In this document: piece by piece, positions 1,682-20,149 of the stretch
Layout of the letters: every line of letters begins with the position of its first letter
Position numbering within the stretch: the first letter of the stretch is position 1
Source of the DNA: a virus
Length of the DNA stretch: 22,992 nucleotides
Virus record (IMG/VR): IMGVR_UViG_3300036808_000083
Span: 1 to 22,992 of that record
Strand: one strand, 5' to 3'
Translations under genes and position numbers: made by a program
Notes under the pieces: generated by a model
The model's input: the letters and a program-made list of their open reading frames with translations, nothing else
What the model was told of the DNA's origin: nothing
Databases searched by the model: none

Positions 1682-2554
1682 ATGAGTGTCAACAATGCTG
1701 TAAAGCAAAAAATCATCAGCGACTACATCAAGACCCCACAGGGTCGAGCCAAGCTCGCTGCCTCCATGACCCAACCACTCCGTACTCGGCGTGATTACAG
1801 TGCCGTTGGGCGCAAGACCTTCTTGGTCGAGCAGCTTCCTGACGGTGCGCTTCCAATCTACGACAAAGATCCCGATGTGACGGCCTTTGTTGTGGGTGAA
1901 GAAGGTCAGAACATTCTGGCAATCACCAAGCCCAGGCGTGTGATTTTCCCGTTGTTCGAGATTGCCTCGAACCCCGAGATTCCGCTGACCCAGATCAAGG
2001 AGCGTCGTTTCGACCTCATTGAGCGTGCCCAGGATCTTGCCCGAGCGCAGATTCAGGCCGCCGAGGACGAACGTGTGTTCGCTGTTCTGGATAGCATCGC
2101 AACCAGTGGTTACGACAGTATCTCCGCAGGTACGAACCCCGACCAGCCGGTCGTGGCTCCGCTTTCCGGTTCGGTACTGGCAGATGCCTTTGCTCTGATT
2201 GAACGACACGATCTCCGTGTGGCTCGGGTGTTTATGAACGCCCGTGACTACGCTGATATTCGCAAGTTCGGTCGGGACATCCTGGACATCGAATCCCAGG
2301 CCACACTGCTGAAGACTGGTCTCCAGGCTACCCTTTGGGGTGCCCAGATCATTACCAGCCGTCTGGTTCCTGTGGGCACGGTGTACGTTTGCTGTGAGCC
2401 CGAGATGTTCGGTCGGATTCCTGTCCGTACCGAGTTGACGGTTCTCTCGGCAGATGATCCGAAGGCTCGTACCATCGGGTTCAGTGTGTTCGAGAACTTG
2501 GGTATCGGGGCGTACAACCCCCGTGGTCTGACCCGCCTGACCGTGACTCGATAG
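1682..2554 (+). CDS. Major capsid protein, HK97-fold type
   Basis: This 290-aa protein starts at ATG 1682 behind a strong AAGGAGG. It begins with a helical N-arm, followed by a polar segment around PDGALPIYDKDPDVTAFVV. A long helical spine with ARAQIQAAEDERVFAVLDSI follows, then the typical C-terminal A-domain pattern: ALIERHDLRVARVFMNARDY, a hydrophobic strand with WGAQIITSRLVPVGTVYV, and an end that leads to IGAYNPRGLTRLTV. The order of long helix, adjacent N-R-D-Y segment and G-x-x-I-x-x-S strand is what HK97-fold capsid proteins show. It is short for the family and has no obvious large delta domain, consistent with a separate scaffold such as the acidic protein upstream. A strong terminator follows immediately, as is common for this highly expressed gene. 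Confidence 0.82.
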   Translation: MSVNNAVKQKIISDYIKTPQGRAKLAASMTQPLRTRRDYSAVGRKTFLVEQLPDGALPIYDKDPDVTAFVVGEEGQNILAITKPRRVIFPLFEIASNPEIPLTQIKERRFDLIERAQDLARAQIQAAEDERVFAVLDSIATSGYDSISAGTNPDQPVVAPLSGSVLADAFALIERHDLRVARVFMNARDYADIRKFGRDILDIESQATLLKTGLQATLWGAQIITSRLVPVGTVYVCCEPEMFGRIPVRTELTVLSADDPKARTIGFSVFENLGIGAYNPRGLTRLTVTR

Positions 2555-2786: not shown

Positions 2787-3041
2787 TTGTCTGAAAAGAA
2801 AGATATCCGACTCACAGACTTTCGACTGGCGGGGTTTCTGGTTGCCCGTGGTGTGAAGTTTCAGGGCACGGACATAAACGACCGGCAAGAAGTCGTGTTC
2901 ATTTTTGATAACGATGAAAATGTCGCCCAAGATACGTTGAACCAGTACCCCGGTTCTTCAGAGCAACAATACGATGCCGCTTGTAAGACCATGCACGACT
3001 TCGTAAAGGTCGCAAGCCAAGCAAAGAAGCGGCGTTCTTGA
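2787..3041 (+). CDS. Small DUF5659-like phage protein (TTG start)
   Basis: This 84-aa protein starts at TTG 2787, which has a GAAGGAG at good spacing; no in-frame ATG is nearby. The N-terminal core TDFRLAGFLVARGVKF, followed by an acidic turn and EVVFIFDND, is the helix-strand-strand layout of DUF5659, a short family frequent in phages; I recognise it from pattern only. The C-terminus is helical with a basic end (KKRRS). The protein at 14451-14693 shares the same layout and is a likely distant paralog. The function of the family is unknown. Its position right after the capsid terminator suggests a minor virion or assembly factor. Confidence 0.6.
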   Translation: MSEKKDIRLTDFRLAGFLVARGVKFQGTDINDRQEVVFIFDNDENVAQDTLNQYPGSSEQQYDAACKTMHDFVKVASQAKKRRS

Positions 3042-3937: not shown

Positions 3938-5932
3938 ATGTCTTTTCCATCTTACGCTAACGACAACACATTCGACTCATTCAACACGAACGGGATGGCA
4001 GAAAACAAGTTTGTGCAACTCTTCAAGGGTTCTCAACGAACTCCGAGCAACCTTCTTGTCAACTCGCTCGCTGTCCCCATGCTTTTCAACTTCGGCGCTG
4101 CCAACGATCTTGCTCTTGAGGTAACTCACGGAGCCAAGATTGGCGGCCAGCTTCACGTTGGCGGCGAGTTTTCGGCTGACGGGGCCATTGTCGCTTCAGC
4201 CAACCTCACCCTCGATACCGCTGGCCCTCAGAGCATTAGCAAGACCGTGAGTGGAGCCTTCAGCATTGAGGGTGTCGCTGGGCTCGACATTCTTGGTGGG
4301 TCGAGTGCTTCTCTCAAGACTACTGCGGGCAACGTGGTCATCGCTGCTCTGACGAGCACTGCTTCGGTCAACATCGAGGATATGAGCATCAAGGCGAACA
4401 CCATTACAGGTGGTGCCTCGTCGATGTATATCAATGCTGGCGATGAGCGGTCCATTATCTTCCAGACGGAAGCTACTAATGCAGTTTTGGCACCGGCTCT
4501 CACGATTGACAAGGACAAGCTGGCGGCCTTCGCTGGTGCTGTGACGGTTGCGGGCAACCTGACTGTCAACGGTACAACCACGACAATCAGCACGGCCAAC
4601 TTGGATGTTGCAGATCTCAACATCACTGTTGCCAATGGTGCTGGCGATTCGGCTGCCGCTAACGGTGCTGGTCTTACGGTCGCAGGTGCGGCAGCCACGC
4701 TCCTGTATGTCCACTCCGGTACAAAGTGGGCGATGAACAAGCCCTTGGATGTCGGTGGTGCGTTGGCAGCTACCGGTGCTGTGAGCGGGGCCTCGGCTTC
4801 CTTCACTAACGCTTGCGTGGCTGGTTCGTTCAACGACGGCATTGCTACTTATGATGCTGGAGTTATCACCTCTGCTGTCTCCGCTGCGTTTAGCGGGGCT
4901 GTAACTGCCGGTTCACTCAACGACGGCATTGCTACTTATGATGCTGGAGTTATCACCTCTGGTGTCTCGGCTGCGTTTAGCGGGGCTGTAACTGCCGGTT
5001 CGTTCAACGACGGTTTGGCAACCTACGACCAAGGTGTGATTGGCTCTGCCGCCTCGGCTACCTTTAGTGGTCTTGTTTCCGCTGGTTCGTTCAACGACGG
5101 TGCGGCAACCTACGACCAAGGTGTGATTGGCTCTGCCGCCTCCGCTACCTTTAGTGGCCTCGTTTCCGCTGGTTCGTTCAACGACGGAGCGGCAACCTAC
5201 GACCAAGGTGTGATTGGCTCTGCCGCCTCGGCTACCTTTAGTGGTCTTGTCACGGGTGGTTCACTGATCACAACTGATAACACCGTGGCTTCGGCAACTG
5301 CCGGGTCTATCAGAACTGCTGGTGGTATCTCGATCCAAAAGGGTCTGATGCTCGGTGTATGGGGTTCTGGCGAGAGTGCTGTTGCTGCGCTGTCTATCGA
5401 CATATATGGCAACATGCTGCCATCGCCGAATATCGCTGCCCTGAACGCTGCTGGTGACTCGTTTATGTCACAGAAGGGGTATGTGAAGATGGGGGCCGCT
5501 CTGAACGGGGCTGTCAAGCCCGCAGCCGGTGATGTCGCTATGTCAGCCGTCGAGGGCGCAGGGGAAAATGCCGTATTGGTTGCTCTCGCAGGGCACTCAA
5601 CCCAGCATCGGGTTATGGGCATTTGTTCCGAGACCGCCGCTATCGCTTCGTTCGGACAGATTGTAACGAAGGGTCCAGTGGTTGCTACTTCTGCTACTTC
5701 TACTGCTACCCCACAGACTGTTATCGGCAAGTTTGCCTATGCCAAGCCTGGAAGCGCCCAGGTTATGTACGAGGTCGATCTGGCCGAGGACACTTGGGAT
5801 ACCGCAGGCCAGGAAGTCTGGTGCCTGGGTACGGTCCTGGAAGTCCTCTCCGACGCAACGGGAGAGGCGACCGGCTTGGTTCGGATTGGATTGGACCCGG
5901 TGCTGGTTGCCAAGATTGAGATCACCATCTAA
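3938..5932 (+). CDS. Fibre-like virion protein with five 29-residue tandem repeats
   Basis: This 664-aa protein starts at ATG 3938 after CGGGAG. Residues about 60-205 are Ala/Gly/Thr-rich beta repeats. Residues about 205-290 carry GNLTVNGTTTTISTANLDV and DLNITVANGAGDSAAANGAG, a signature I know from fibre-like structural proteins of cyanophages and other marine phages. Residues 295-439 are five 29-aa tandem units of the AGSFNDG-ATYD-GVI-SA type. The C-terminal 220 residues form a different, non-repetitive domain ending in VRIGLDPVLVAKIEITI. Such proteins form trimeric shafts or appendages on the virion. Its place in the head module, far from tail genes, raises the option of a head fibre. No chaperone or lyase motif is seen. 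Confidence 0.65.
   Translation: MSFPSYANDNTFDSFNTNGMAENKFVQLFKGSQRTPSNLLVNSLAVPMLFNFGAANDLALEVTHGAKIGGQLHVGGEFSADGAIVASANLTLDTAGPQSISKTVSGAFSIEGVAGLDILGGSSASLKTTAGNVVIAALTSTASVNIEDMSIKANTITGGASSMYINAGDERSIIFQTEATNAVLAPALTIDKDKLAAFAGAVTVAGNLTVNGTTTTISTANLDVADLNITVANGAGDSAAANGAGLTVAGAAATLLYVHSGTKWAMNKPLDVGGALAATGAVSGASASFTNACVAGSFNDGIATYDAGVITSAVSAAFSGAVTAGSLNDGIATYDAGVITSGVSAAFSGAVTAGSFNDGLATYDQGVIGSAASATFSGLVSAGSFNDGAATYDQGVIGSAASATFSGLVSAGSFNDGAATYDQGVIGSAASATFSGLVTGGSLITTDNTVASATAGSIRTAGGISIQKGLMLGVWGSGESAVAALSIDIYGNMLPSPNIAALNAAGDSFMSQKGYVKMGAALNGAVKPAAGDVAMSAVEGAGENAVLVALAGHSTQHRVMGICSETAAIASFGQIVTKGPVVATSATSTATPQTVIGKFAYAKPGSAQVMYEVDLAEDTWDTAGQEVWCLGTVLEVLSDATGEATGLVRIGLDPVLVAKIEITI
4820..5254 (+). 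repeat. Five tandem 87-bp repeats inside the fibre-like gene
   Basis: Five in-frame 87-base units encode 29 residues each. Units 1-2 (ATYDAGVITS, SAAFSGAVT) form one subtype and units 3-5 (ATYDQGVIGS, SATFSGLVS) another. Within a subtype the DNA is nearly identical. This indicates recent duplication and likely copy-number variation by recombination or slippage. Confidence 0.95.
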
Positions 5933-7649: not shown

Positions 7650-8459
7650 GTGAGTATACAATGGAAACGAGGCGAGTTTCTTGCCTTCCGAGCAACCACC
7701 AAGGTTCATCTTGGGAAGGTTGAGAAAGACATCTTTGAGAACGACGAGATCGAGTTCGACGGGCAGACGGTGAAGTATGCCGGGGAAGAGTTCGCTCTCT
7801 CCACGCTACGAGCCGCTGTGAAGGCGGGCTGGTTCGTTCCGATTGAGGATACTGTCAGCACCTATGTCCCGCAACCTGCGGACATTCGTATCCGTCCCGC
7901 ACAAGCGTTGGACATGAACACCCGAGGCGAACCTATGAAGGTCGAGCAAGCCTCTGACGAGGAACGGGTGGTCGGTACGGTGGAAGCCGCCAACGTAGGT
8001 GGTCGGGCTACCAAGGGAGATCCCGATGGCGTGGTAAGCACGATCAAGACGGCTGCGAAGCAGCGTGTCACGGTCACAGACGCCAGTCAGGTAGCTGCCG
8101 AGATCAACCGTCTGGACAACTCACCCCCGCCAGCAGCCGACTTCACACAGTCAGCTACCGGGGACGTGACCCAGACTATTGAATCCGCAGGGGAACTGGA
8201 CACCTTGCTACCGGATGCCGAGGTCCACCCGGCCAAGGCGGCCAAGAAGACCGTCAAGAAGGCTTCTGGAAAGACCGACAAGATCATCTCTGTCGAGACC
8301 CCTCATGGGACCATCGATTGGGATATGTCGGTTCACTGGAAGACCCGGGCGAAGACTATCGTCAGCAAGTACGGGAGTAACCCCGAAGTCCTTGACTCCA
8401 TTCTGGGAGTTGAAACGAAGGGTGTCGTCAATCAGGTTCAGGGAACTCTCGATAACTGA
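7650..8459 (+). CDS. Unknown 269-aa phage protein, likely virion-associated
   Basis: Translation starts at GTG 7650 behind AGAGGAG. The N-terminal domain (about residues 1-70) has alternating strands with the segment DEIEFDGQTVKYAGEEF and ends in LRAAVKAGWFVP. A long polar, low-complexity linker follows (about 75-210) with a Lys/Ala-rich stretch (AKKTVKKASGK). The C-terminal domain has HGTIDWDMSVHWKTRAKTIV, whose His, Trp, Asp and Tyr residues look like a conserved core. The two-domain layout joined by a flexible linker suggests a structural or adaptor protein. I cannot name a family. A terminator follows. Confidence 0.65.
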   Translation: MSIQWKRGEFLAFRATTKVHLGKVEKDIFENDEIEFDGQTVKYAGEEFALSTLRAAVKAGWFVPIEDTVSTYVPQPADIRIRPAQALDMNTRGEPMKVEQASDEERVVGTVEAANVGGRATKGDPDGVVSTIKTAAKQRVTVTDASQVAAEINRLDNSPPPAADFTQSATGDVTQTIESAGELDTLLPDAEVHPAKAAKKTVKKASGKTDKIISVETPHGTIDWDMSVHWKTRAKTIVSKYGSNPEVLDSILGVETKGVVNQVQGTLDN

Positions 8460-8546: not shown

Positions 8547-8951
8547 ATGAAGAAAGACGCATCCAGTCAGGCAGCTTGGGCACTTCTCATTAGAGGTGTT
8601 GCCGAAGCTCGTACAGAGGCACATCGTCTACGGCACCTCGTCAATCGAGGACTGAAGATCGCAGAGGCTTCCGATCAGAAGGAGCACCTGTATGCGATAG
8701 CCGGTGATTTGATTGTCGGTATGCCAAAGCGCCTTGGAGTTCTTGAGCGTGTTCTGGATCGTACCTCCTATGCTCTTTCTGTCATGGGGAGTGAGTTCTT
8801 CGAGTCCCGCCTTGCTCTCCCAGATAGGGAGCTTGTGGAGGAAGCCGTAAAGCACTCACAACAACCCTTCCCTGGAAGCACCAAGCGCAGTTCTGCTCAT
8901 AAGGTAGCGGCTCGGTATCTGGCAAAGATGGCCGTCGATTCGGAGGGTTGA
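8547..8951 (+). CDS. Small helical unknown ending in a VAARYL motif
   Basis: This 134-aa, mostly helical protein starts at ATG 8547 in the context GGGATGGAATG. It is 28 bases after the terminator, so its promoter must lie within or upstream of the terminator, or it depends on read-through. The C-terminus carries SSAHKVAARYLAKMAVD. Similar VAxR-aromatic or hydrophobic peptides occur in the next protein (twice) and in the protein at 19877. The stop overlaps the region just before the next start. No family recognised. Confidence 0.65.
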   Translation: MKKDASSQAAWALLIRGVAEARTEAHRLRHLVNRGLKIAEASDQKEHLYAIAGDLIVGMPKRLGVLERVLDRTSYALSVMGSEFFESRLALPDRELVEEAVKHSQQPFPGSTKRSSAHKVAARYLAKMAVDSEG

Positions 8952-8953
8952 GT

Positions 8954-10894
8954 ATGGGTTCGAGGAAGCCACCACGATTGGCTTATCGTCCACCCGCCAG
9001 TGAGCTTTCGGGTGTCCAGACCTATGTCACCCAGACTAACAAGGAGAACCTCCCGCCGAATACGGACAAGTCTCCACAAGACAACTATCACTCCAGGCAG
9101 AATGGTCCGTCTGCACCGGAGAACAAGCAGCAAGCCCTACCCATCACGCCGCAGCACAAGAAGCAGCGTGACCAACGTCCCCCGATTTCTGACACGGGCG
9201 GCGGGGGCAGCAGCACCTCTCGACCGCAGTTCAATGTCCCTCCCCACTCCGAGGATGCCGTAGGGGGCCGCCCTATCCACAAGGAGAAGGTGAGGACTAA
9301 ATCTCAACCTGGGGAGGACTACGGGCACTCTCATATGGACCAGGGGCACCGTCTTCATCAGCGAAGACCCGGTGTTATCGCCACCGAGGCAGAGGATGTT
9401 GAAGCTGGGTATGAGGATGGGAAGTACCCTGTTCAGCGACAGCGGAAGCAGCGAGGACAGGCGAAGAAGTATTACCGAATCAAAGACAAGAAGCCCGACA
9501 GGAAGCTGCCAAAGAGACGAAAGTCTCGAATCAAGTGGAAGACCAAGCGGCGTAAGGGGACAACCAAGCGGTATAAGAGGAACTCACGGAAGTTTCCTCG
9601 TCGCTTCGTGCGGTTTCGTGGTGGTGGTGTTGCAACCAACGCAGAGCGAACACAGAAGTGGCGGGATAAAGGCAACCCCGTAAAGTACAAAGAGTATGAG
9701 AAGGACCGCCAAGAGCAGCGGAAGAAGGATCGCAAGCAAAAGAGCGAAACGAAGCTGCAAACGAAGAAGGCGGGTCTGACAGACATCCCCTTGCTGACAT
9801 TCTATGACTATGCAGGAAAAGCCGAGGTTCGAGAGGTAATCCTCGAAACCGAAACTGTTGTCTTCACCATCGAGGATGAGGTTTACGACGTTCCTTTCGA
9901 TTTCCTGGTTGACGAGATTGAGGACGAAACGGTCTTCGATGCGTTGTTTGGATACATTGATGAACTCATCACCTTGAGTCAGGAATACGACTTTGAGGTC
10001 GATGATGATCCGCAGGATCTTACGGTGGATGATATGGCCCAAGCCCTCAAGGAAGCGTTCTACCGAGAGCAACGCCGCCCCGACATGCTCACCCAGAACT
10101 GGAGAAAGGACCGCTCCAAGGGCGTCCCAGACGGCGAAGACGCCAATGCCGAGGCATACGGCGGGAGTTCAACTTGGGTTGTTCCGATGTCTGGTGCCCC
10201 AGGTCTGATTGAGGAACGGGAAAACCAGACACCTACCGACACGATCCAGCAGCCAGCCGTGCCAAGAAATCCCGGCTCTGCCAAAGTCATTCCCAGTGGT
10301 TACGGTTTCGTCAACAAGATAGCGTCCCGGCATGTGGACCGAGTGGCTGCTCGTATCGCCGAGATCTGGGATTCCACAGATCAAAAGATCCATCAGAGGT
10401 CTGACGGGCTCCAGGTCAAACTCAAGAGAACAGTTCCCAAGCACGCCTATTGGTTGTTTCAAGTCCAAGGGAAGACTGGGAGTTACCTCATCCGTCTCCA
10501 GGCCCAACGACGGGGAAACACCGTAGACATCAACAAGTTGAACGTCCGTATGTCTTGTACGTGTGACTTTTGGCGATGGCAGGGACCGGAGCATTGGGCA
10601 AAGGTCGGTGACTATCTTTATGGTAGACCCCGAGGAACAGCCAGTAATCCCGATACCAAAGATCCAGATGGAAGGCACCGGGTCTGTAAGCATGTTCTCG
10701 CTGTACTTCGTCGTGCCAAGAAGAACTACAAAGTACGGCCCAAGTCGAGGTTCACACAGAAACAAGGAAGTGCTCTGGTGGGGCTTCGGTATCTCTCCGA
10801 TACTATCGGTATGGGTAGGGTGTCAGTCAGCTACCGTGAGTTTGACCAAATGGTTGCGAGAGTGGCTGCTCGATTTGGACAGGAGAAGGCTTGA
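8954..10894 (+). CDS. Large multidomain protein with SWIM-type zinc motif
   Basis: This 646-aa protein starts at ATG 8954, six bases after GGAGGG; the in-frame TTG at 8948 is too close to that site. Residues 1-150 are disordered (Pro/Gln/Ser). About 155-275 is strongly basic (KKRRK/KRYKR runs). About 275-375 is a folded acidic domain (VFTIEDEVYDVPFDFLVDEI and onward). The C-terminal domain holds C535-x-C537 and C578-x-H580, the CxC...CxH pattern of SWIM zinc fingers, with WRWQGPEHWA and DYLYGRPRGTA between. VAARI and VAARF motifs precede and follow this domain. SWIM domains bind DNA or proteins. In a phage head block an internal or DNA-contacting virion protein is plausible. I cannot assign a specific role. 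Confidence 0.75.
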   Translation: MGSRKPPRLAYRPPASELSGVQTYVTQTNKENLPPNTDKSPQDNYHSRQNGPSAPENKQQALPITPQHKKQRDQRPPISDTGGGGSSTSRPQFNVPPHSEDAVGGRPIHKEKVRTKSQPGEDYGHSHMDQGHRLHQRRPGVIATEAEDVEAGYEDGKYPVQRQRKQRGQAKKYYRIKDKKPDRKLPKRRKSRIKWKTKRRKGTTKRYKRNSRKFPRRFVRFRGGGVATNAERTQKWRDKGNPVKYKEYEKDRQEQRKKDRKQKSETKLQTKKAGLTDIPLLTFYDYAGKAEVREVILETETVVFTIEDEVYDVPFDFLVDEIEDETVFDALFGYIDELITLSQEYDFEVDDDPQDLTVDDMAQALKEAFYREQRRPDMLTQNWRKDRSKGVPDGEDANAEAYGGSSTWVVPMSGAPGLIEERENQTPTDTIQQPAVPRNPGSAKVIPSGYGFVNKIASRHVDRVAARIAEIWDSTDQKIHQRSDGLQVKLKRTVPKHAYWLFQVQGKTGSYLIRLQAQRRGNTVDINKLNVRMSCTCDFWRWQGPEHWAKVGDYLYGRPRGTASNPDTKDPDGRHRVCKHVLAVLRRAKKNYKVRPKSRFTQKQGSALVGLRYLSDTIGMGRVSVSYREFDQMVARVAARFGQEKA

Positions 10895-11283
10895 TGCCGA
10901 TTTACTCATATCAATGTGAAAACGCAGAGTGCGGACACGCTTTTGAGCACTCTTTGCCGATTTCCGAGTACAAATCACCCCAGGATTGTCCTGAATGTGA
11001 AGGTTCGACAAAGAAGCTCATCACGCCGATTGGGTTCATTCTCAAAGGGGATGATTGGGCGGGCAAAAATCTGCGGATCAAGAAGCAGATGGCAACAAAG
11101 AATCGCCACCTCTCTGGTAAAGAAAACGAAATGAAGCGGGACGGCCCCAGAATGACTCTTGCCCCAAATGTGGGTGGAGAGAGGGTCGAGAGTTGGGCAG
11201 ACGCCCAGAAGCTCGCAGCCAGTAAGGGGAAAGAGACCTCTTCGTACAACTCGTTGGTGCATAAAGAGCGGAGTACCGCATGA
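10894..11283 (+). CDS. FmdB-type zinc-ribbon protein
   Basis: This 129-aa protein starts at ATG 10894, overlapping the previous TGA by one base, with AGGAGAAGG upstream. The N-terminus MPIYSYQC, followed by GHAFE and CPEC, is the classic FmdB-family zinc ribbon. Cys8 and Cys13 form the first pair (spacing wider than the usual CxxC) and Cys32 and Cys35 the second. The C-terminal 90 residues are basic and polar, with no known domain. FmdB-like proteins are frequent small genes in phages, probably protein- or nucleic-acid-binding. Tight coupling with the SWIM protein suggests related work. The next gene overlaps it by ATGA. Confidence 0.8.
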   Translation: MPIYSYQCENAECGHAFEHSLPISEYKSPQDCPECEGSTKKLITPIGFILKGDDWAGKNLRIKKQMATKNRHLSGKENEMKRDGPRMTLAPNVGGERVESWADAQKLAASKGKETSSYNSLVHKERSTA

Positions 11284-11999
11284 TCGGGATTATCCCAAGT
11301 GTGCTTGAGCGTTCGCCCGGTCTGATCGATCTTACGATCCGAAATACCAGCGCCACTCATTACCGTATCTCGGCTCACCGTACCTTGAATGATGCACACA
11401 TTGGCGGGACAACCCTGTTCACGATCCAGAAGAACACCTCTTTTCGGTCCAGGACTCTTCGACAGAAGGGGCTTGGGTTGACGATGGACTCCAACCGGGG
11501 TCTTACCCGAATGGTCTTTGATCTAAAGGACTACGCTGATGGCGGAGGCGGCACAGCAGCCACGGTCCCTATGGATGAAGAGATCCTGTATCTTCGGGTA
11601 GAAGAAAGCATGGACGAGGAAGTTTCCTGGCTCGCCGCTGGCCCTATTGTGGTGATCCCACCCGCAGGTTTTTACCGCACCCCAAACCCGGCATTGGTTC
11701 TTGCAGGCACAGCCCCCACGGATGGCGGGAGCACATCGATTGGAAACCCAGCTTCAAGTGCTGCCATGCACATTATTTTTCCGAAGTTTACGGTGGATAT
11801 TTCCGTTCGTAACCACGGAACAGCCGGGGCGGATGCCGGAGATATTTGGTATTCGGTTGGACATAATCATCCGGTCGGACGCTTGGAAGCAGACGACTGG
11901 TGGTTCGGTGGACCCGGCGGATATCGGGAGCTTCTTCTCGAAGGTTCTAATGCTGCTGCGGACTTTAGTATCAATATGGGAGTTGCATCGAGGATGTGA
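11280..11999 (+). CDS. Beta-rich virion structural protein, unknown family
   Basis: This 239-aa protein starts at ATG 11280, overlapping the zinc-ribbon gene by four bases (ATGA), so translation is probably coupled. It is rich in alternating hydrophobic residues, Gly and Thr, without membrane segments. Recognisable stretches are YRISAHRTLNDAHIGGTTLF, LYLRVEESMDEEVSWL (an acidic beta hairpin) and DIWYSVGHNHPVGRLEADDW near the C-terminus. This composition is typical of virion surface or neck proteins. Its partner could be the paralogous pair that follows. Function not recognised. Confidence 0.6.
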   Translation: MIGIIPSVLERSPGLIDLTIRNTSATHYRISAHRTLNDAHIGGTTLFTIQKNTSFRSRTLRQKGLGLTMDSNRGLTRMVFDLKDYADGGGGTAATVPMDEEILYLRVEESMDEEVSWLAAGPIVVIPPAGFYRTPNPALVLAGTAPTDGGSTSIGNPASSAAMHIIFPKFTVDISVRNHGTAGADAGDIWYSVGHNHPVGRLEADDWWFGGPGGYRELLLEGSNAAADFSINMGVASRM

Positions 12000-14381: not shown

Positions 14382-14450
14382 CCTCGTTTCTCCGGCTATA
14401 CATTCTCCTACATAGACAATGTGAACTACACCATATGTGCTGGAGAAATG

Positions 14451-14693
14451 ATGCCTAATACAAATGGTCACTACCGGACCTCGGACCTCTACTACGCCGC
14501 ATACCTAAAGGTGGCGGGGGTGATGTTGGAGGACTGCGTGCGGGAAGACAATCGAGTTTTCTTCCTCTTCGAGCACACGGACTCAATCTCCGACTTGAAG
14601 CAGCAGTATTTCAACCGCACCAGCAAGGTTCCGGCGTTGAGCTACGCAGATGAGATTCGATCCATGAAGGCGTTGACCCACATGGGTCGATAA
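14451..14693 (+). CDS. Second DUF5659-like small protein
   Basis: Several in-frame starts exist (GTG 14421, ATG 14448, ATG 14451). GGAG at 14442-14445 favours ATG 14451, giving 80 aa. The pattern YRTSDLYYAAYLKVAGVML, then an acidic turn and VFFLFEHTD, repeats the layout of the 2787 protein (helix, strand, strand), typical of DUF5659. A C-terminal Tyr-rich helix follows. The two are diverged paralogs or independent members of one family. It precedes the probable neck protein by 10 bases, again at the start of a transcription unit. Function unknown. Confidence 0.6.
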   Translation: MPNTNGHYRTSDLYYAAYLKVAGVMLEDCVREDNRVFFLFEHTDSISDLKQQYFNRTSKVPALSYADEIRSMKALTHMGR

Positions 14694-14703
14694 GGAGAGC
14701 AGG

Positions 14704-15600
14704 ATGGGTGTAGCCTTTTCACCGGGGGCCACTCTCGGGCGTGGTGATCTGGACATTTTCCTGACCAATGCCCAAGGGAACGCAGCGAACGCTTACGAGA
14801 TCACGTTCGCTCTCTACTACGTTGATCCAGGGTCGTTGAACGAAGTGCTCATCGGCTCGGAAACCCGAACCCCTGTGAACCCCGTGACGGGTGAATACTA
14901 CTCTGCCTTGATGGTGCCTCCATCGGCAGAGGCAGGTGACTACCGCATCCGATGGACTCTCAAGGAGTTCTCCAACAGCCCCGAACAACAGGTCGTTCAA
15001 GAGTGGGCCGTTGTAGCATCTTCCGCTTTGGAAGCCGCCGTCTATACAGTCGGCCAACAGTCGATGATCGATAAGCTACGGCTTCTCCTTCGAGACCAGA
15101 ACCCCGACAAGTATTATCGGTTCCGCCCCCCAGAGCATGAAGGGGACGTGGGTGCCTACAACCGTGTCATGGGCCAAGTCTGGGAAGATGCCGAGCTACT
15201 GGAATACCTGGAGAGGGCTTTGGATTGGTGGAATATGTTTCCACCAGAGACAGAGGCTTTGAACACCCTCGACAGGCTCGTAAAAATAAAGCCGGTTTGG
15301 CGAACAGCAGTTCTTTGGGCAGGGATTATCCATGCAGCAACGGCTCTTCAAGCTAACTGGATCGTTGAAGAGTTCGATTACTCCATTGGAGGGATCAGTC
15401 TGTCTCTTGAACGCTCCAGCAAATACGAGTCCTTGAAGTCCAGTGCGGAACAGCAGTTGGACAAAGCAACAGAGATGAAGGCACGGACAACCAAGTTCAT
15501 TCGTGGTTTGCAGCAGCCGAAATATGGGATTGGTATCCGTTCTTCCTTCGGCCCTTACGTTGGTAGAGGCGTGTTGAGTCCCCGAGGGTTCGTCGGTTGA
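14704..15600 (+). CDS. Probable neck or head-tail connector protein
   Basis: This 298-aa protein starts at ATG 14704 behind AAGGAGAG. The N-terminal 110 residues form a beta-sandwich-like domain (YEITFALYYVDPGSLNEVLI, then GEYYSALMVP). The remainder is helical with many aromatic residues: MIDKLRLLLRDQNPDKYYRF, LERALDWWNMFPPETEAL, ANWIVEEFDYSIGGISLSLE, and a Lys/Ala helix ending in TKFIRGLQQP. The helical part recalls head-tail adaptor-like structural proteins of environmental phages. The family name is not known to me, and the neck role is inferred from position before the fibre and the gp10-like gene. No enzyme motif is visible. Confidence 0.55.
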   Translation: MGVAFSPGATLGRGDLDIFLTNAQGNAANAYEITFALYYVDPGSLNEVLIGSETRTPVNPVTGEYYSALMVPPSAEAGDYRIRWTLKEFSNSPEQQVVQEWAVVASSALEAAVYTVGQQSMIDKLRLLLRDQNPDKYYRFRPPEHEGDVGAYNRVMGQVWEDAELLEYLERALDWWNMFPPETEALNTLDRLVKIKPVWRTAVLWAGIIHAATALQANWIVEEFDYSIGGISLSLERSSKYESLKSSAEQQLDKATEMKARTTKFIRGLQQPKYGIGIRSSFGPYVGRGVLSPRGFVG

Positions 15601-18600: not shown

Positions 18601-19877
18601 TTTCTGCTGACAACGACAACACCACGTATGGCGGTACGGGGTATATCTCCGTAGCCGATCCCACGGCTGGGAATACCGTGGGAACAATCACCTTGGATGT
18701 CACTCCAGAGGGTCTTACAGACCTCGCATTAGTGGGCCATACTCATCTTGCCGCCGAGATTACGGATCTCTCGGACACCAACACCACGTATGAAGCTGAC
18801 TCTGGATCGGGTGGGGATTACATCACTATTGTTGCGCCTTCGGGCGGATCGTCGGTTGGAACTTTCAGCTTGACGGTCAATCCTGCTAACGAAACACCTG
18901 CACTTTCGGTCACTGGTCATACACACACCGTAAGCGAGCTTACGGATTACACCGCTGTTACGGACACCAACACCACGTACACCTCTGCCAATAGTGACAT
19001 CACTATTGCTGCACCTTCGGGTGAGAGTACCGTAGGTACGATCACGTTCAACGCGGCGCTCTTCGCCTCCAGTGACCATGACCACGATAACGACTACGCC
19101 GCAGACGACCATGACCATGCGTTGGGAGATGCTTCAGACGTAACGGCAGCGGTGGACGTGAACGATAACGGAAAGGTGCTGACCTACCAAGGGAACGATA
19201 ACGGGTTCACTTGGGAAACTCCCGCTTCAGGTGGGGCAACCAACCTGGGCGATCTGGGCGATGTCACAGGTGGTGGGGAGGACGGCCAAGTCCTGACTAT
19301 AAACTCTGGGGCCGCAACCTTTGTCGATGTCCCTGTTACATCAGATGGCCGGGGCATCAAGACCTATACCGAGGGGGATGTTACTGGGTCGCAGCTTGAC
19401 ACCAAGTCGCTGTTGATCACTTCGAGTGTCTTCAAGACCTACAAGACAGGGATTATGAGGTACGACGGCGGGGCCGGTGAGTCTATCGAGAAGGTCTATC
19501 TCCCGCTCACTATGGACCCAGCCGGTGCTCACGACGGCACATATGCGGAGGCGGGTAAGTTCCTCGCTTACGAAACTTTCACTATCATCAATCAGTCAGC
19601 AGGTGAACGGGTCACAGTAATAGAGATATATGGTTGGGAGAGTAACGACTGGTATGATCCATTCAACCCCAACAACAACCCCGCCTCTGGGGGAGAGATC
19701 GGCATTACTGTGGGGGGTGGAACGTCGTCACCGGGCGGCGGGTCGTCAGGCCGTATGATGGTCCAGTTATCGCCGGGAGGCGCTGTCACCCTTGCTGCTT
19801 ATGTGAATGAGACAACACAAAAGACAGATTGGCTCGTCGTGGGTCAATCCGGCGATGCCTCGATGCTGGCGGTGTAA
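15684..19877 (+). CDS. Large fibre protein with shaft repeats and His/Asp-rich metal motif
   Basis: This 1397-aa protein starts at ATG 15684 behind GGAGAGAGG. Fibre-shaft signatures occur along the chain: INDLTDVDLTNAADGDIIGF (about 167), NELTDVVVPTPNDGEFLQYT (about 355), LDDLTNVNTTDAADG (about 415) and LGDLGDVTGGGEDGQVL (about 1187). 'LPVA-STLGG-KV/T' turns lie at residues 717, 793 and 947. Residues about 979-1145 hold three 'NTTY' repeats with GHTH motifs, ending in a DHDHDNDYAADDHDHA stretch. Paired His residues of this type coordinate metal in T4 long and short tail fibre tips. A Gly-rich C-terminus follows. It probably forms a trimeric adhesion fibre. Whether it attaches to the tail or the head/neck cannot be told. 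The next gene starts on its stop codon. Confidence 0.75.
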   Translation: MSYINTKGINELGATFERITAEGNEVDWSDLGSVTMVSGRDGGNITFAKAAIKQINGCAFEFGTTGGGCGTTINGLDPAQVQADFFVEGGAFYSKVREASLNANSAAWLSNVEVLKTTQLGATVQSRNNAKLDHFQSMVINSGEYVRWNGTTFEGAVVTGGGGGASYINDLTDVDLTNAADGDIIGFDIATGKWKNGQLQLGSMTLAADPSPTLSADLSGANHNIDLQGGKALFSNIYVTLQDLPTSATYHGMFAHVHATGAAYYSHVDNVSGTLTWHDLLANGTTAPDNYTDPLSTVAYSGSYTDLINQPTQTLGGNSDVSLTTPSANQVLTYNGASWVNSAAQGGGGALTLNELTDVVVPTPNDGEFLQYTSQNNWQNVALFLDDLKSNSADGKYVVDVIGSDISLAQPTMPMLDDLTNVNTTDAADGRFVRRDEQVGVVPSVTISEDPAGTGVTGTLVVEARENLSFFMGVVFTSQLAPVWDNGSGLTLMPPDFGIYLVRGNDVDGLPGDSLFFMADTATGTDANGGPIWNNPGSYPSSGATILELVHDNQGNPVLDGNGAPTFVDVTDDRWKVTGTGWFTTQMLYAADSGQIVPVNFIGVTGHSDHGNTQSTITDVGIAGQSAVAEYKVQPLTSLDIVGAATGAISPLDNQHLVWHASASKFIWAAESGTSVTQDSIKQALIGSTTDPSAAGSAFVWNGASWEYGLVPSAYTLPVASVSTLGGVKTGGANVSIDGAGVISFTPAALTAEGIVNTMTGVDPGSSNEGQVLVWHESTSNLTWAALGGSYTLPLADGSTRGGIKIDSTAYPNSGGSFPTYISLTNEVIGVDVATLFGALSTSLWADPEVSAGDIQLGNLYLNQGHLRLHAGAVGYESGEPHYQEPGTIRAAATTGDIEAYIADGTGQNAAWISLSADTQGPTYTAGSGINIDGSNQITSTVADYSLPVASASTLGGIKVNGGGLAIAGDGILSADNDNTTYGGTGYISVADPTAGNTVGTITLDVTPEGLTDLALVGHTHLAAEITDLSDTNTTYEADSGSGGDYITIVAPSGGSSVGTFSLTVNPANETPALSVTGHTHTVSELTDYTAVTDTNTTYTSANSDITIAAPSGESTVGTITFNAALFASSDHDHDNDYAADDHDHALGDASDVTAAVDVNDNGKVLTYQGNDNGFTWETPASGGATNLGDLGDVTGGGEDGQVLTINSGAATFVDVPVTSDGRGIKTYTEGDVTGSQLDTKSLLITSSVFKTYKTGIMRYDGGAGESIEKVYLPLTMDPAGAHDGTYAEAGKFLAYETFTIINQSAGERVTVIEIYGWESNDWYDPFNPNNNPASGGEIGITVGGGTSSPGGGSSGRMMVQLSPGGAVTLAAYVNETTQKTDWLVVGQSGDASMLAV
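18618..19118 (+). repeat. Three diverged tandem units with GHTH / DHDH motifs
   Basis: Units start at 18618, 18780 and 18969, each with a 'NTTY' block, a 'VGT' strand block and a histidine motif (GHTH, GHTH, DHDH). Unit lengths are 54, 63 and about 50 codons. The DNA sequence GACACCAACACCACGTA recurs exactly at 18774 and 18963. They form the metal-binding part of the fibre. Confidence 0.8.
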
Positions 19878-20149
19878 TGAAACCGAAGGCTTCCAGAGTG
19901 GCTAATCGCTACATCGACCGACAAAGGGTGCGTGTTGCAGGGCAACACTACAAGGGTAGTCGTGTGTACGAGTACCAGTCAGGCGATGGTACGATCTACT
20001 GGACCTTCAACAAGTATAGGCAGACGGTCGTTCCTCACCAGAACCTTCAGCTTCAGAGTCGGGTTGGTAAACACCTTATCAACTATCTAAATGAGCTACG
20101 GCTTATTGGACAGCAGACACAAAGATTGATGGAAGACCCAACTTCCTGA
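19877..20149 (+). CDS. Small basic unknown with N-terminal ASRVANRY motif
   Basis: This 90-aa protein starts at ATG 19877, sharing one base with the fibre stop (TAATG), so it is translationally coupled; the upstream in-frame ATG inside the fibre gene is not likely. Residues 4-12 read KASRVANRY, related to the VAARY-like motif at 8898 and 10843. The body is aromatic and basic (VYEYQSGDGTIYWTFNKYRQ). The small size and direct coupling to a fibre raise the option of a fibre assembly helper, which is inference. No family recognised. Confidence 0.65.
   Translation: MKPKASRVANRYIDRQRVRVAGQHYKGSRVYEYQSGDGTIYWTFNKYRQTVVPHQNLQLQSRVGKHLINYLNELRLIGQQTQRLMEDPTS

Follow-up and report, generated by a model that had tools for sequence, protein, structure and literature searches.

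SWIM-type proteins in phages

The gp25 protein of phage P1 has been assigned a role in tail stability; it was weakly detected in virions, with two peptides, HHpred gave no role for it in the published study, and it could be an assembly cofactor instead of a stable part of the virion (PMC9024508). In Bacillus phage SP-15 a SWIM gene lies before the sheath gene, between a gp13-like neck gene and a Neck1/tail-completion gene, the latter being two genes beyond it. The SWIM gene of Listeria phage LIS04 is found between the neck gene and the sheath gene, and those of GXN1 and Va2 are placed similarly to that of SP-15. SWIM-like proteins are present in P1-like, SP-15-like, Lu11/PaBG-like, Vibrio and actinobacterial phages, some of them already annotated "SWIM-type". 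The open literature that we searched for SWIM and phage does not describe the domain in virions. The preliminary description of the locus studied here had called such domains rarely described, which is right for that literature but not for the sequences, where SWIM-like proteins occur in several phage groups.

The protein reported here is encoded in a stretch of viral DNA of 22,992 nucleotides (IMG/VR record IMGVR_UViG_3300036808_000083; the window) and belongs to a family that is mostly annotated as hypothetical.

The window protein and its zinc motif

The features of the SWIM gene and its surroundings are compiled in Table 1. Its stop codon and the start codon of the following gene share letters in the sequence TGATG at 10892-10896. 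The protein contains only three cysteines, all of them within the motif, and these (C535, C537 and C578) together with H580 form the pattern CxC-x40-CxH. The four residues are exactly where the preliminary description had placed them, and the 40-residue spacer from C537 to C578 with its peptides WRWQGPEHWA and DYLYGRPRGTA was found as described there. None of 20,000 shuffles of the composition of the window protein produced a CxC-x(6-60)-CxH pattern, which rules out a composition artefact as its source.

Table 1. Coordinates of features in the window and, where a locus is named, in related phage sequences.
Feature	Position	Strand	Remarks
Major capsid protein gene	1682..2554	+	phrog_2522 major head protein, E 8.6e-51; anchors head block
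Gene A	7650..8459	+	no PHROG match; syntenic partner upstream of SWIM gene
Gene B	8547..8951	+	no PHROG or Pfam match; directly upstream of SWIM gene
Shine-Dalgarno-like GGAGGG	8942..8947	+	precedes ATG 8954; read directly from the sequence
SWIM-domain protein gene	8954..10894	+	646 aa
Basic region, residues 161-280	9434..9793	+	net charge +39
Acidic region, residues 281-360	9794..10033	+	net charge -25
SWIM core, about residues 485-592	10406..10729	+	predicted (AlphaFold) beta strands, CxC, loop, CxH helix; kept in 20 relatives
Codons of C535-T-C537	10556..10564	+	predicted first zinc-ligand pair; invariant in aligned relatives
Codons of C578-K-H580	10685..10693	+	predicted second zinc-ligand pair; invariant in aligned relatives
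FmdB-type zinc-ribbon gene	10894..11283	+	PF09723 Zn_ribbon_8, 45 bits (cut-off 34.4)
Gene E	11280..11999	+	syntenic partner in closest relatives
Connector-like protein gene	14704..15600	+	phrog_17327 head-tail connector, weak match, E 1.3e-4; downstream border of block
Intein-bearing SWIM gene	L035 7950-10421		same protein in L036-L039
SWIM-like genes of four jumbo phages	L044 7755-8426; L045 7806-8225; L047 7593-8255; L097 3761-4417

Clear relatives of the whole protein were found on a 44-kb contig (L002) and in the uncultured phage LR745208.1 of 485 kb (L003). A search of viral contigs with an alignment of the domain yielded 36 loci, many on contigs between 100 and 485 kb long, and no relative turned up when bacterial and archaeal genome contigs were scanned with the alignment. 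The related proteins range from 126 aa (L019, which extends scarcely beyond the SWIM core) up to about 800 aa. None of the four CxC and CxH ligands varies in 20 aligned relatives, the majority from large contigs, so that loss of the Cys or His residues, named in the preliminary description as an observation that would speak against the motif, was looked for and not seen in any of the 20. Ile 33, Gly 106, Pro 128, Pro 133 and Lys 141 (using domain numbering) are also invariant in this alignment, and Trp 102, Glu 108, Tyr 116 and Asp 132 nearly so. Both cysteines of CxC are likewise invariant in a set of 27 sequences, cultured phages among them, with one row ending before CxH.

The Pfam SWIM model (PF04434, curated cut-off 19.6 bits) scores 12.5 bits on the whole window protein and 18.5 bits on the isolated domain, and two relatives pass the cut-off (L019 with 22.6 bits and Maribacter phage Colly with 19.9 bits). 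The window family shares with PF04434 the CxC followed by CxH, the β-strands leading up to CxC and a helix beginning at CxH, but differs from it in the 40-residue insert between the ligand pairs and in a conserved signature of its own, WxWxGPExxAK...GTASxPDIRDP. The insert is longer than that of the classical SWIM motif. Conservation, Pfam scores at or just under the curated cut-off, the predicted fold and the profile-profile match to phage SWIM-like proteins (see below) bear out the identification first made by eye from the letters: the motif is a real, strongly conserved zinc finger of SWIM type, a divergent form of an established fold in a setting that has been little described.

Predicted fold of the domain

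An AlphaFold model of the domain, built from 20 sequences, has a mean pLDDT of 79.9, with most of the core strands and the CxH helix blocks above 90. The predicted topology features three long strands, a fourth strand that ends in CxC, two short helices, a loop modelled with less confidence, and a helix opened by CxH, so that in the model the elements follow each other in the order expected of a SWIM domain. Neither the domain profile nor P1 gp25 gave a usable match in sequence searches of the PDB, and no solved structure was matched when the model was compared with the PDB by Foldseek. Against predicted viral structures, Foldseek returned nine proteins at E ≤0.001, and the matches include a protein of Burkholderia phage BcepSauron that UniProt names "SWIM-type domain-containing protein" (E 6.7e-4). 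A match from Myrna (B5LJA0) was not located within the stretches of the Myrna genome that were examined.

Gene order around the SWIM gene

In order to compare gene order, the window genes were searched by tblastn on 21 related loci, many of which end before the more distant genes. Within the reach of these loci, the major capsid gene was found in 14, every time upstream of the SWIM gene; genes A and B each lie upstream of it in 13/21 and the FmdB zinc ribbon downstream in 13/21, while gene E is present in six and the connector-like gene lies downstream in six. The order capsid-A-B-SWIM-FmdB-(E)-connector-like, all on one strand, recurs across the related loci, and therefore the SWIM gene is a fixed part of the block running from the capsid gene to the connector-like gene in the clade of the window. 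Assignment of the protein to the head block thus agrees with a conserved position downstream of the major capsid gene. A tail sheath (PF04984) was searched for in nine related large records and none was found.

Several other features of the window were observed. The FmdB-type gene overlaps the SWIM stop codon, so that two zinc proteins are encoded side by side. The C-terminal part of the gene B product contains HKVAARYLAKMA. Two small genes, at 2787-3041 (84 aa) and 14421-14693 (90 aa), flank the block; both match L027:12254-12490 and are therefore possibly paralogues. The stretch 3938-5932 encodes a long repetitive protein with near-identical internal repeats of the type SFNDGxATYDQGVIGSAASATFSGLV, which is probably fibre-like.

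Links to P1 gp25 and to SWIM-like proteins of other phages

Profile comparison by hhalign of the window family with an alignment of P1 gp25, SP-15 SP15_038, LIS04_65 and GXN1 gave a probability of 98.0 (E 3e-13, 98 columns), and comparison with a group formed by JA29, BcepSauron, Motura and Va2 gave 97.4 (E 1.2e-11), figures that are optimistic in both cases because they come from small alignments and from matches centred on the motif residues. The match to the P1 group also spans the strands before the motif. In the search against PHROG HMMs the window protein did not match phrog_1722, the group of P1 gp25, and matched phrog_4315 only at 0.007; in the absence of a direct match we do not file it under phrog_1722, which one of its relatives (P0002) matches at 1.8e-5.

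The window protein and P1 gp25 have in common the CxC...CxH core (C192, C194, C233 and H235 in gp25), the upstream β segment, an NP...CKH signature and a context of virion morphogenesis, whereas gp25 is a protein of 405 aa with other flanking regions whose gene lies among tail and baseplate genes. The SP15_038, LIS04_65 and GXN1 proteins share the SWIM-like core and a gene position between capsid or neck genes and the tail sheath; they are 184-289 aa long and belong to contractile-tailed phages, unlike the relatives of the window, in which a sheath gene was not detected. Gp16 of Rhodococcus phage Finch is likewise of SWIM type and encoded in a head block, where its gene immediately follows the portal gene and the capsid gene comes three genes later, but has 769 aa, another architecture, the ligands CSC...CSH and a weak fold match (E 0.014). 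The profile links to P1 gp25, SP-15 and LIS04 thus indicate that SWIM proteins are widespread in phages and barely described.

Proposed function and the charged N-terminal arms

On balance we favour the view that the window protein is a divergent phage SWIM zinc-finger protein with a role in virion morphogenesis, where it most likely helps to complete the head or to join head and tail. Its distant relatives include the P1 "tail stability" protein, so it probably represents a widespread and overlooked part of virion assembly. The motif, its conservation, the gene order and the profile match to P1 gp25 and SP-15-type proteins were observed directly; zinc binding, a place in or on the virion, the partner and the step concerned are inferred. 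The C-terminal domain would bind one zinc ion through C535, C537, C578 and H580, and the zinc would pin the small β-sheet to the helix and keep the 40-residue loop (WQGPEHWAK...DYLYGRPRGTA) in place, so that another protein of the virion could dock on it. The N-terminal arm, basic and then acidic, would have been added in particular lineages and may extend to DNA or to further proteins of the head.

The strongly basic region of the preliminary description is present (Table 1), and the acidic region named there is indeed acidic but was not predicted to be folded, with pLDDT mostly <50 in a model made from only seven sequences. As a whole this full-length prediction was too poor (pLDDT 42) to serve for conclusions on the arms. 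The long N-terminal arm is probably disordered. When seven long relatives were aligned, the basic arm was found to be kept basic (net +19 to +34) and the acidic region acidic. Many relatives of 126-290 aa have no basic arm, which therefore does not belong to the core function; with arms seen in the seven long relatives and sizes reaching down to 126 aa, what the family shares is the SWIM core, to which the arms have been added.

Outside this family, DNA-linked proteins often carry SWIM domains, and the preliminary description had suggested a contact with packaged DNA. The window protein might be read as an internal or ejected head protein, whose basic arm coats packaged DNA while the SWIM domain adds DNA affinity, and which may be ejected with the genome. 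Conservation of the arm in the seven long relatives and the position of the gene in the head block are consistent with this, but the relatives of 126-290 aa without the arm and the equally conserved acidic stretch that follows it argue against it, and we regard it as unlikely.

SWIM-like genes near sigma-factor and replication genes

A search with the Motura protein brought up a second SWIM-like group, with members in 87 phage records at E ≤0.001. In the four jumbo-phage members examined (BcepSauron, Motura, JA29 and PaBG) an RNA polymerase sigma factor gene is located downstream of the SWIM-like gene, next to it in BcepSauron and some genes away in the other three. Lu11/PaBG/Y3-type jumbo phages and Maribacter phages have the SWIM gene among genes for replication, recombination and sigma factors, and some members may therefore not be structural. 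The former correspond to phrog_18980, which resembles the window family in its SWIM-like core (profile match probability 97.4, the optimistic figure given above); the members examined, unlike the window, are encoded near sigma factor, SSB and RecA genes and not near capsid genes. The function in the JA29/BcepSauron/Motura/PaBG group may differ from that in the clade of the window.

The sigma factor genes downstream of the SWIM-like genes in these four phages, and the label of transcriptional regulator that FmdB relatives carry in PHROGs, would also fit a control of late transcription by the SWIM protein and the adjoining FmdB zinc ribbon, both encoded with the head genes and not built into the head. 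In the clade of the window the gene remains grouped with those for the capsid and the connector-like protein, however, and P1 gp25, which was detected in virions, is a factor of tail stability (PMC9024508); such a regulator is, in our estimate, quite improbable.

An intein at the zinc site

In one lineage the SWIM gene carries an intein. The loci L035-L039 are identical, and L040, which ends at the contig end, is identical as far as it is present; the capsid gene lies upstream in the L035 locus too. The Pfam evidence consists of Hom_end_hint at 37.1 bits (cut-off 32.1) and an Intein_splicing domain reaching to residue 610. The intein ends in VVVHN directly before CKH (VVVHN|CKH), that is, before the third zinc-ligand cysteine. 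The +1 splicing residue would be the third zinc ligand itself, and the complete zinc site would then form only after splicing. Inteins tend to occupy conserved functional sites, and insertion at this point fits a functionally important or constrained site. That the CxC/CxH pattern lacks a metal function, as a chance or decayed arrangement, might be argued from the score of the window protein under the Pfam SWIM cut-off, but is scarcely credible given ligands invariant across deep divergence, the composition test and the predicted topology.

Returning to the reading of a SWIM protein in head completion or head-to-tail joining, the findings provide a phage family mostly annotated as hypothetical with a fold and with a zinc site that can be tested, and this site suggests a molecular handle on P1 gp25. 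We put forward only tentatively, and with some doubt, the wider proposition that the SWIM zinc-finger protein is a widespread, unrecognised head-tail completion component in phages ranging from P1 and the SP-15-like ones up to those of almost half a megabase, with completion zinc-dependent in all of them and the site of one lineage completed only through intein splicing. If head-tail completion did require zinc, this step, of which little is understood in huge phages, would become testable in a laboratory phage.

A recurrent short peptide

A peptide of the type [VI][AV]xR[YFH][LIVA] (for example KVAARYLAKMA) is repeated in many seemingly unrelated proteins of these huge phages, often no more than about 20 residues from an end. 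In the window it is carried by the products of 8547-8951 (residue 120), 8954-10894 (several copies) and 19829-20149 (residue 24), and it is also found in L053-L096. It might serve as a tag for sorting, for packaging or for a protease, or its carriers may be homologous. Control phages contained 3 copies vs 3.5 in shuffles, and two of the genomes 20 vs 4.0 ± 2.2 (G001) and 21 vs 5.1 ± 1.9 (G006).
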